Assembly (NCBI GenBank): GCA_014284505.1 | Contig: JAAFYY010000001.1 | Location: 2,666,001-2,730,000, forward strand | Length of the DNA: 64,000 nt | Direction: 5' to 3' | Origin: Streptacidiphilus sp. 4-A2 | Lineage (GTDB): Bacteria > Actinomycetota > Actinomycetes > Streptomycetales > Streptomycetaceae | Shown here: positions 2,816 through 8,703 of the stretch, one piece after another | How positions within the stretch are numbered: position 1 is the stretch's first letter | How the letters are laid out: the number at the start of each line of letters is the position of its first letter | Notes under the pieces: generated by a model | The model's database searches: none | What the model saw: the letters and a program-made list of their open reading frames with translations, nothing else | Told to the model about the DNA's origin: nothing | Program-made: the position numbers and the translations under genes

Positions 2816-3483
2816 TCAGAGGCTGCGGGCGGTGATGTCGCCGTGGTTGGTGGTGGCCCGGATGTCGAGTTCGGTGGTGCCGTTGTTCTTCAGGGCGTTG
2901 CTGACGCGGCCGTGGCCGGTGCCGGCGTCCAGGGCCGCGGAGACGCCGGGGGCGGCGCCGACGGTGATGTCGCCGGTCTGGGTGCGCAGTTCGACCGTGC
3001 CGTGGGCGGCCTCGGTGACGCGGATGGCGCCCCGGGCGGTGGTGATCTGCGCGGGGCCGGTCAGCCGGCCGATCTCCACATCGCCGTCGACCGCGGTCAG
3101 GCGTACGCCTGCGGCTTCGTCGATCTTGATGTACTGGTAGGCGCCCTCGAAGTCGACCTCACCCAGCCGTCCCACGCCGCGCAGTTCGCAGCTGGCGGTG
3201 CGGGCCCGCAGGTGCGAGCCGGCGGGCAGCTGGACGGTGATCTCCACCGCCCCGGTGGGGCCGAAGTACTGGTTCCCGGGCTCGGCGCTGCGGATCCGCA
3301 GGACGCCGTCGGCGAACTCCACCGAGGTCCCTCGGCCGCCTTCAGGTCGCGGCCCTTGGCGGGGTCGGCGGGGCGGACCCCGACGACGGTGTCGGCCCGG
3401 TCCGCGGCGATGACCTGGATGCGTCCGGCGGCGATGTCCACGACGGCGGTGACCGGGGCGGGGGTCTGGAACGTCTGCATCAT
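2816..3483 (-). CDS. DUF4097 family beta-strand repeat protein, one frameshift
   Basis: About 222 residues made of short repeated beta strands, rich in T, G, V and 'D/EI' turns such as 'GDVEIGRL', 'GAIRVTEA' and 'GDITVG', as in the bacterial adhesin-like DUF4097 family. The N-terminus 'MMQTFQTPAPVTAVVDIAAG' is typical and has no signal peptide, so the protein is probably cytoplasmic. The frame changes near 3335 ('DLKAAEG' to 'VEFADGVLRI'). It is divergent from the HTH/MarR gene at 3713, a pairing common in Streptomyces, and probably regulated by it through the repeats between them. Molecular function is unknown. Confidence 0.85.
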
Positions 3484-3528
3484 GCTCTCCCAAGCTCACT
3501 CATCTGTTTTCCGACACCGCAAACGCTA

Positions 3529-3660
3529 CGTTGCATTCGCACATCAAGCAACGAGTCTGTTGCGCAAAAACCCCATCACCGCAGGCAGACGCCTGGATTT
3601 CATTGCAACGAACGTGGAGCTAACGCAACGACCCGTCGCCCCGAGCGTTGCATTGAGTCA
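3529..3660. promoter_or_regulatory. Divergent operator region with repeated CGTTGC elements
   Basis: The 229-bp gap between the two divergent genes contains 'cgttgcatt' twice (about 3529-3537 and 3646-3654), its inverse 'aatgcaacg'-like 'cattgcaacg' (3601-3610), 'cgcaacg' (3624-3630), and a hyphenated palindrome gcaac-N6-gttgc at 3548-3563. Such a cluster of the same half-site in both orientations is expected for cooperative binding by the MarR-type regulator encoded next door. That protein/site link is inference from position. Confidence 0.6.
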
Positions 3661-3712
3661 AGAGTGAACGCTATGCTGACCGCACCAGCAGCACACAGAC
3701 AGGAGACCCGCG

Positions 3713-4474
3713 GTGCCCGGCGGCAGACTCACCCAGCAGGAACGCCAGCAGATCGCACTCGGACTGGCCGACGACCTCCCCTACGCCGAGATCGCCCGCC
3801 GCCTGGACCGCCCCACCTCCACCATCACCCGCGAAGTCGACCGCAACGGCGGCCCCACCAGCTACCGCGCCGACCTCGCCCACCGCGCCACCGAACACCG
3901 CGCCCGCCGCCGCAAGCCCACCACCGCACACGCACCACAGGACCACGGACGCGACAACCAGGCCGTACGCGCCTACGAAGAAACCTTCGCCACCCTGATG
4001 ATGCAACAGGGCCTGCCCAAAATGACCGCCCGCGTACTGACCAGCCTTTTCGTCGCCGACACCGGCAGCCTGACCGCGACCGAACTCGCCCACCACCTCC
4101 AGATCAGCCCCGCCTCCGTCTCCAAAGCCATCACCTTCCTCGCCGACCAGGGCCTCATCCGCCGCGAACGCGACGAACGCCGCCGCGAGCGCTACCACGT
4201 CGACGAAGACGTCTGGTACCAGTCCACCATCGCCGCCGCCCACGGCATCGCCCAAGTCGCCCACACCGCACGCCAGGGCATCCCCGTCCTCGGCCGCGAC
4301 ACGCCCGCCGCCACCCGCCTGGAAAACATCGCCCGCTTCAGCGACTTCATCAGCGAAAGCATGCTCCGCGCCGCCGAACAAGTCCGCGACATCCTCCACA
4401 CCAAACCACCCGCAACACCCACCCCCGGCCACAGACACAGATCACTGACGCCGACTAGCCTCACAGAGCGATGA
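3713..4474 (+). CDS. MarR/GbsR-type regulator with an N-terminal IS30-like HTH
   Basis: 253 residues, intact. Residues about 4-45 ('LTQQERQQIALGLADDL', 'AEIARRLDRPTSTITREV') match the helix-turn-helix found at the N-terminus of IS30-family transposases (HTH_38). Residues about 100-165 form a MarR-like winged helix ('TATELAHHLQISPASVSKAI', then 'ERDERRRERYHVD'). The C-terminal third is helical and probably dimerises. It thus carries two different DNA-binding modules. GTG 3713 is chosen over upstream codons because 'aggag' precedes it by 7 bases. It faces the DUF4097 gene across a repeat-filled intergenic region, suggesting control of itself and that gene. Ligand unknown. Confidence 0.85.
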   Translation: MPGGRLTQQERQQIALGLADDLPYAEIARRLDRPTSTITREVDRNGGPTSYRADLAHRATEHRARRRKPTTAHAPQDHGRDNQAVRAYEETFATLMMQQGLPKMTARVLTSLFVADTGSLTATELAHHLQISPASVSKAITFLADQGLIRRERDERRRERYHVDEDVWYQSTIAAAHGIAQVAHTARQGIPVLGRDTPAATRLENIARFSDFISESMLRAAEQVRDILHTKPPATPTPGHRHRSLTPTSLTER

Positions 4475-4475
4475 C

Positions 4476-4490
4476 TTGACGGCCAGTCAA
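4476..4490. repeat. TTGAC-N5-GTCAA inverted repeat just after the regulator stop
   Basis: Perfect 5-bp arms around 5 bases begin 2 bp after the stop of the MarR-type gene. It could be an operator of TetR/MarR size or part of a promoter (TTGAC is a -35-like core). The following gap to 4717 contains one more GC hairpin (about 4559-4590) that may act as terminator between convergent genes; nothing else is evident there. Confidence 0.35.
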
Positions 4491-4717
4491 ATCTGCAAAC
4501 CCTCGCAACCGGGGACGCGCGGCCGTACCTCAGCATCTCCGCGCCCGAGCAACTCCCCCGCAGCCCCCGGCTGTTCGGCCGGGAGCTGCGGTGCCTTTGT
4601 TTGGTTTCCTGTTCTGCTGATTCCACGTCAGTCGACGGCGGAGTGAGGGGTTGCGTCAACGCCGCTTGAATGCCGGGCACTTGGCGGATCTGGTGACACC
4701 CCGCGCGCTGACTGCTC

Positions 4718-7930: not shown

Positions 7931-8548
7931 CTACGGCTCCTGCGCCTCGGCGAAGGCAAGCAGTTCCTCCCGGGACCAGGCCAGGCGGCCGGTCCGCAGG
8001 TCGTCGACCACCGACCGGACCCACTGGAGCTCCGCGGCCGTGGTGGCTCGCAGGTACTCGATCTCCAGTCGACTGATCCGCGGCAGCCCGCCCTCGGTCT
8101 CGGCCGCCAGGCCGGCCTCCAGCCCGGCCAGGGTGGCAGCGAGCGTGTCAGCGCGCCGGGTGAGCTGCTCCTGGATCTCCTGCGGGGCGAGCAGCAGCAG
8201 GTGCGAGAGCGCGGCCGGGAACTCCGGGTACTCCTGCTTGGGCGCGGCGAGCATCTCGCACAGCCAGTCGTGGGCCGCCGTGCGCCCGGCGTCGGTCAGC
8301 TCGTACACCGTGCGCTCCGGGTACAGCTGGTCGCGCCCGGTCTCCCGGACCGTGATCAGACCCGCGGCCAGCAGGCGTTCGATCGTCCGGTAGAGGCTCG
8401 CGCGCTGGGTGACGTTGACGACCTGATCCTTGCCCCACTGCTTGATCAGCCGCTGCACGCCGTACGGGTGCAGCGGCTGGTAGTGCAGCAGCGACAGGAC
8501 GGTCAGGGCGAGCGGCGAGCGGCGCAGTGGGGTGCTCATGGCGGTCAT
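7931..8548 (-). CDS. PadR family transcriptional regulator
   Basis: Intact, about 205 residues. The winged helix 'SPLALTVLSLLHYQPLHPYG' then 'QRASLYRTIERLLAAGLI' and 'RTVYELTDAGR' is classical PadR, followed by the Vir-like C-terminal helical domain used for dimerisation. Two in-frame ATG codons (8548 and 8539) are possible; the former has 'gggag' close upstream, the latter 'agga'. It is divergent from an FAD monooxygenase and the gap holds repeated ACTAGT sequences, so it probably represses that gene and itself. Confidence 0.87.
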   Translation of the reverse strand: MTAMSTPLRRSPLALTVLSLLHYQPLHPYGVQRLIKQWGKDQVVNVTQRASLYRTIERLLAAGLITVRETGRDQLYPERTVYELTDAGRTAAHDWLCEMLAAPKQEYPEFPAALSHLLLLAPQEIQEQLTRRADTLAATLAGLEAGLAAETEGGLPRISRLEIEYLRATTAAELQWVRSVVDDLRTGRLAWSREELLAFAEAQEP

Positions 8549-8560
8549 CCTACTCCCAAA

Positions 8561-8586
8561 GTGACTAGTTGACTTGAAACTAGTTT
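8561..8586. promoter_or_regulatory. Likely PadR operator (repeated ACTAGT)
   Basis: ACTAGT occurs at 8564-8569 and again inside the perfect palindrome aaactagttt (8577-8586). The outer sequences gtgactagt and actagtttcac also mirror each other. In a 72% GC genome this AT-rich dyad immediately upstream of the PadR start is a strong operator candidate. Confidence 0.6.
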
Positions 8587-8603
8587 CACTGCAACTATCA
8601 AAC

Positions 8604-8665
8604 CATCGCGGAGCCCGCAAAGCCCGCGGAGCCCGCAAGCCCGCAGAACCGGCCAGACCCGCAGA
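8604..8665. repeat. Imperfect short tandem repeat (gcccgca-type)
   Basis: The sequence repeats cgcggagcccgcaa-like units of about 17-18 bases four times with decay between the PadR operator and the monooxygenase RBS. It has no coding meaning that I can see. Confidence 0.45.
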
Positions 8666-8703
8666 GCCATCGCACCAGCGGAACCCCACCGAGGAGCACC
8701 GAC

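Follow-up and report, generated by a model that had tools for sequence, protein, structure and literature searches.

An IS30-type helix-turn-helix fused to a MarR winged helix in a Streptacidiphilus regulator beside an array of transposon-end-like half-sites

A regulator gene and a DUF4097 gene diverge from an array of half-sites

The window is a stretch of 64,000 nucleotides from Streptacidiphilus sp. 4-A2. Near its start, a regulator gene and a DUF4097 (Toastrack) gene are read away from each other, and an array of short half-sites lies between them. The span first singled out, 3529 to 4474, is the regulator gene plus this array. The features are as follows.

2816 to 3483, minus strand: divergent DUF4097 (Toastrack) gene, frameshifted in the assembly (open reading frames, PF13349)
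3506 to 3524: imperfect dyad GTTTTCCGACACCGCAAAC, where relatives have GTTTCyGA-N-GAAAC (conservation)
3523 to 3528, minus strand: ACGCTA, on the minus strand TAGCGT, possible -10 element of the DUF4097 gene (by eye and conservation)
3530 to 3651: array of six GTTGC/GCAAC half-sites (positions, conserved spacing, enrichment), at 3530 (+), 3548 (-), 3559 (+), 3602 to 3609 (ATTGCAAC, cores at 3602 and 3605), 3625 (-) and 3647 (+)
3581 to 3585: GCAGG element, mid-array (kept in place in 87 of 88 loci)
3648 to 3677, plus strand: TTGCAT ... TATGCT, possible weak -35 and -10 elements of the regulator gene, overlapping the last half-site (by eye and conservation)
3713 to 4474, plus strand: fusion regulator gene, 253 aa, GTG start (open reading frame; HTH_38 and MarR over Pfam cut-offs; full length kept in relatives)
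3725 to 3847, plus strand: HTH_38 domain of IS30-transposase type, aa 5 to 45 (profile match, alignment, model helices)
3956 to 4201, plus strand: MarR/GbsR winged-helix module, aa 82 to 163 (Pfam, model, Foldseek)
4205 to 4396, plus strand: two long C-terminal helices, aa 165 to 228, presumed dimer interface (AlphaFold2 model)

The initial annotation had placed the regulator opposite a DUF4097 gene, across repeated CGTTGC half-sites in both orientations and a gcaac-N6-gttgc element, and this is the arrangement we found. The DUF4097 gene matches PF13349 (E = 1.3e-7), though it is split by a frameshift in this assembly; its two halves are in one frame in the sampled relative L217. A prolyl oligopeptidase gene at 384 to 2698 appears frameshifted as well. 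Together with a genome completeness of 76.5%, these frameshifts point to an indel-rich assembly rather than to real pseudogenes.

The region between the two genes contains five copies of CGTTGC/GCAACG and six of the shorter GTTGC/GCAAC, and GCAAC-N6-GTTGC is present at 3548 to 3563. Six half-sites in 229 bp compare with 1.17 expected (p = 0.0005, 2000 dinucleotide shuffles). The array is the densest 130-bp stretch of half-sites in the 64 kb, and the densest elsewhere holds three. A promoter scan found no sigma-70-type promoter in 3400 to 4600. Therefore, the -35 and -10 assignments rest on conservation and inspection by eye. A small hairpin, CAGGCAGACGCCTG, lies mid-array at 3582 to 3595, and its GCAGG part is conserved in position. 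We dropped the idea that the array acts as an RNA hairpin: this stem is the sole terminator-like one, at the number expected from shuffling (1 versus 0.9).

The regulator joins an HTH_38 domain to a MarR winged helix

In a Pfam profile search, HTH_38 (PF13936) matched aa 5 to 45 (53.2 bits, cut-off 27, E = 2.4e-14). MarR (PF01047) matched aa 116 to 155 (41.9 bits, cut-off 24.6) and MarR_2 (PF12802) scored 41.6 bits (cut-off 27), and together they cover aa 100 to 156. The IS30-type HTH and the MarR/GbsR domain that had been read from the sequence at the outset are therefore both present over Pfam cut-offs, and the expected likeness of the N terminus to HTH_38 profiles holds. In an alignment, the likeness to IS30 transposases runs beyond the HTH to about aa 70. 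The protein stays below the cut-offs of both the IS30 transposase model NF033563 (17.4 versus 80 bits) and the CudC/GbsR equivalog NF047500 (15.8 versus 218 bits). It differs from an IS30 transposase in its fusion to MarR, in having no DDE or rve catalytic domain among the 25 of 40 Pfam matches listed, and in copy number: the window's own genome has one full-length copy, unlike a multi-copy mobile element.

Structure prediction recovered the two modules as anticipated. The AlphaFold2 model, for which the input alignment held 41 sequences (the window protein and 40 of the best 80 loci), had a mean pLDDT of 86.5 and a pTM of 0.55. The HTH_38 helices span residues 8 to 19, 24 to 31 and 35 to 44, and a fourth helix spans 48 to 66. 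A poorly predicted linker (about aa 67 to 81) leads to the winged helix and then to the two long C-terminal helices. In a Foldseek search, the C-terminal part matched the MarR-type structures 4nb5, 1ku9 (Mj223) and 5jbr at E ≤ 5e-5; these GbsR/MarR regulators likewise have a winged helix and long C-terminal helices.

The fusion is widespread

A scan of species genomes gave 549 candidate stretches, 457 of which encode relatives; the best 80 of the 457 are 66 to 84% identical. In the regulator's own genus, 13 of 14 genomes matched at 1e-20 and 11 hold a full-length fusion. The genomes without one are G011 (HTH part missing), G008 (a MarR-only relative) and G013 (no match). At 1e-33, 177 of the 249 genomes sampled in the family have a relative. 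Across the phylum, 28 of 296 genomes matched at 1e-10, many of them with MarR-only or transposase matches. The fusion recurs across many genomes and is therefore no assembly artefact.

The usual neighbor is a divergent DUF4097 gene at a distance of about 225 bp; it is present in 71 of the best 80 loci. Among the other nine, L058 has DUF4097 downstream and eight show none, four of these having less than 260 bp upstream before the contig ends.

The array is conserved in sequence and spacing

We started from 98 usable loci, 96 of which had 245 bp upstream, and kept 88 after dropping those with at least 85% identity. The mean pair identity of the 88 upstream regions is 63%. GTTGC/GCAAC occurs at a mean of 5.58 per 245 bp, against 0.87 to 0.88 in shuffled sequence. 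The cores of sites one to six are intact in 87, 53, 76, 67, 70 and 74 of the 88 loci, and the reverse core overlapping site four in 44. The first two spacings, 18 and 11 bp, are the same in all 88. Later spacings are 23 or 24 bp in 87 loci and 20 to 22 bp in 86, and those around the GCAGG element are 23 and then 20 bp in 87. From the third to the sixth site, with GCAGG counted in, five elements stand about 21 to 23 bp apart, which is two helical turns.

Beside the array, a GTTTC-N5-10-GAAA[AC] dyad pattern fits 66 of the 88 loci, the window not among them. Its counterpart in the window, the imperfect dyad at 3506 to 3524, is a possible site of the MarR domain.

Distant fusions have other neighbor genes, and those without an adjoining DUF4097 gene still have GTTGC sites upstream: a mean of 2.83 half-sites in six loci versus 0.64 shuffled. 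Of four further distant fusions, L162 and L164 entered this six-locus count; L159 and L161, counted separately, have three and one.

The half-site resembles the inner core of IS30 ends

IS30 terminal inverted repeats have an inner core, GTCGTYGCAACACC, to which the half-site corresponds (p about 0.0005). Our set of 20 ends came from nine multi-copy groups in eight genomes and from E. coli IS30A; the IS30-like copies of G327, whose ends were not defined by the alignment, stayed outside the matrix comparison. GCAAC is present in 18 of the 20 ends, both G093 ends read GCGAC, and the consensus is GGTCgtcGCAACACc. A matrix of 616 operator instances reached a correlation sum of 7.86 of 10 with the IS30-end matrix (p = 0.0004 and 0.0006, shuffled columns, flank-aware), in a comparison that was not blind, such ends being known beforehand. 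The IS30 end gave its best fit when read on the opposite strand; as its core is nearly palindromic, contact could be in either orientation. The exact string TCGTTGCAAC is present in the ends of two IS30 groups and in published ISLxc3 ends, given as GGTCGTTGCAACA in one account (PMC2516522).

The HTH_38 model matches the E. coli IS30 transposase (InsI1) at aa 58 to 98, its second HTH, and the ends of that element share the GCAAC core. Our assignment of the HTH that binds the ends follows what Nagy in 2004 reportedly described for the IS30 HTHs, as cited in later work. The isolated N-terminal part of the IS30 transposase is described as footprinting the inner region of the ends, overlapping the promoter (PMC3299598).

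Downstream of HTH_38, an NGG..Y-A-A-R-R motif is common to the fusions and IS30 transposases. In an unrooted HTH_38 tree of 76 columns with long branches, 27 fusion segments group in a single clade (support 99/94) distinct from the 22 IS30 transposases; rows whose HTH resisted pattern cutting, including L183, L208, L196 and L199, were left out. The extended alignment and the match to the second IS30 HTH support the fusion architecture and an origin of the regulator's N terminus from an IS30 transposase. We infer the direction, from transposase to regulator, because IS30 is far more widespread.

HTH_38 is the likely reader of the array

We consider it likely that an exapted IS30 transposase HTH reads a transposon-end code in an array that controls both DUF4097 and the regulator. 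The match to IS30 ends, and the occurrence of the array with fusions and not with MarR-only relatives, support indirectly that HTH_38 is what reads the repeated half-sites. The 25 MarR-only relatives average 0.28 half-sites versus 0.47 shuffled; in 23 a TTCA-N5-8-TGAA dyad is present instead (0.01 shuffled). We dropped an operator shared by both groups, as only 4 of 88 fusions have the TTCA-N-TGAA dyad. The regulator differs from the GbsR/MarR kind in its extra IS30-type HTH and in a six-site GTTGC array in place of one TTCA-N-TGAA dyad.

MarR domains normally supply operator recognition. An alternative is that the winged helix reads GTTGC with altered specificity, with HTH_38 as a minor helper or protein-protein module and the likeness to IS30 ends as a coincidence; a chance match between a five-base core and a 19-base end is possible, here with a flank-aware p of about 0.0005. 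However, the MarR-only relatives carry TTCA-N-TGAA and not GTTGC, whereas at least one GTTGC/GCAAC core lies upstream of all 88 fusions (at least three in 87), and the HTH_38 residues are among the least variable positions in the 41-sequence alignment of the protein. We therefore think this explanation unlikely, although the specificity of the MarR domain itself may have changed.

The MarR-only genes L094, L098 to L104, L114 to L118, L132 and L133 usually face an apparent ABC transporter ATPase gene together with the TTCA-N-TGAA dyad, and MarR-only relatives of this kind seemingly form a separate, large regulator family. The distant fusions L159 and L162 seemingly face an ABC ATPase gene as well, yet keep GTTGC sites. 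Therefore, the same kind of target appears with two operator types.

Array and fusion coincide in the genus

Arrays with no or one mismatch lie at DUF4097 genes in 11 of the 14 genus genomes, the same 11 that hold a full-length fusion. G003 is a special case: the array at the regulator itself is two mismatches off, and it is a distant DUF4097 gene that has the close match. In G008, G011 and G013, the array search gave nothing better than two mismatches. At up to two mismatches, totals were at chance level in every genome (the reversed control was similar), and the few one-mismatch matches elsewhere look like chance. In one case, L093 of G011, the HTH_38 part is lost, a natural domain deletion, and the array upstream is also absent.

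Nine DUF4097 genes without an adjoining regulator, in seven genomes, retain the array through its last site, which suggests control in trans. At these loci (L217, L219, L220, L221, L222, L225, L234, L239 and L242), the alike stretch stops near AACGCTATG. Searching for a regulon with the array's right half proved too strict: it gave a single match in 14 genomes (G005), which was not an array locus, and nothing in the genome of the window.

The array might instead serve another DNA-binding protein or the promoters, with the fusion regulator adjoining it by happenstance. The half-sites do overlap possible promoter elements, and the array persists at the regulator-free DUF4097 genes. However, the three genus genomes without a full-length fusion lack it at up to one mismatch, and distant fusions keep GTTGC sites where no DUF4097 adjoins, which makes this explanation improbable. 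That the N terminus is a generic sigma-70 region 4-like HTH is highly improbable: its matches to that region are weak and below cut-off (23 bits versus 53 for HTH_38), and the NGG..Y-A-A-R-R motif is shared with IS30 transposases.

A proposed mode of action

In the favored scenario, in which the transposase-derived HTH reads the array, a MarR/GbsR-type regulator would have gained, once, an IS30 inverted-repeat-binding HTH at its N terminus. HTH_38 would still read the transposon-end core TCGTTGC/GCAAC, now laid out as six half-sites. With dimers formed through the C-terminal helices, several HTH arms could sit on the array, and both divergent promoters would be covered. The regulator would thus control, presumably by repression, the envelope-associated DUF4097 gene and itself, and other DUF4097 copies in trans. 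The role of the winged helix may be to bind the separate dyad near the DUF4097 gene or to sense a signal. A transposon address code was thus apparently put to new use as a control switch.

In animals, host-transposase fusion transcription factors, such as KRAB-transposase fusions, join a transposase DNA-binding domain to a regulatory domain. The present regulator differs from these in being bacterial and apparently IS30-derived, with its putative operator arrayed beside its own gene. It appears to be a MarR/GbsR-type regulator with an exapted transposase DNA-reader, new to the literature searched, most of it outside subscription journals, in which we found no description of an IS30-HTH/MarR regulator. 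If our reading is correct, a widespread bacterial regulator was born from a transposase DNA-reader and MarR and has kept the transposon-end code. Transposase-domain domestication would then be directly testable in bacteria, with a legible ancestral code and the MarR-only relatives as natural controls.

Several genomes, G036, G312, G010 and G318 among them, hold a fusion regulator (in G318 a distant form) together with IS30 copies with GTCGTYGCAACACC-type ends. Regulator and resident elements might share one DNA code, with the regulator also sitting on IS30 ends or the IS30 transposase on the DUF4097 array, coupling element activity to envelope-gene control, but we regard this as distinctly unlikely.

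Our reading would also assign a regulator and an operator to the DUF4097/Toastrack genes of Streptomyces-like bacteria. DUF4097 belongs to the Toastrack group, which one account places in envelope stress systems as a proposed membrane-proximal platform for assembly (PMC11237479). The same account links PadR regulators to Toastrack systems (PMC11237479), and a PadR-type regulator gene lies nearby in the window, at 7934 to 8689.
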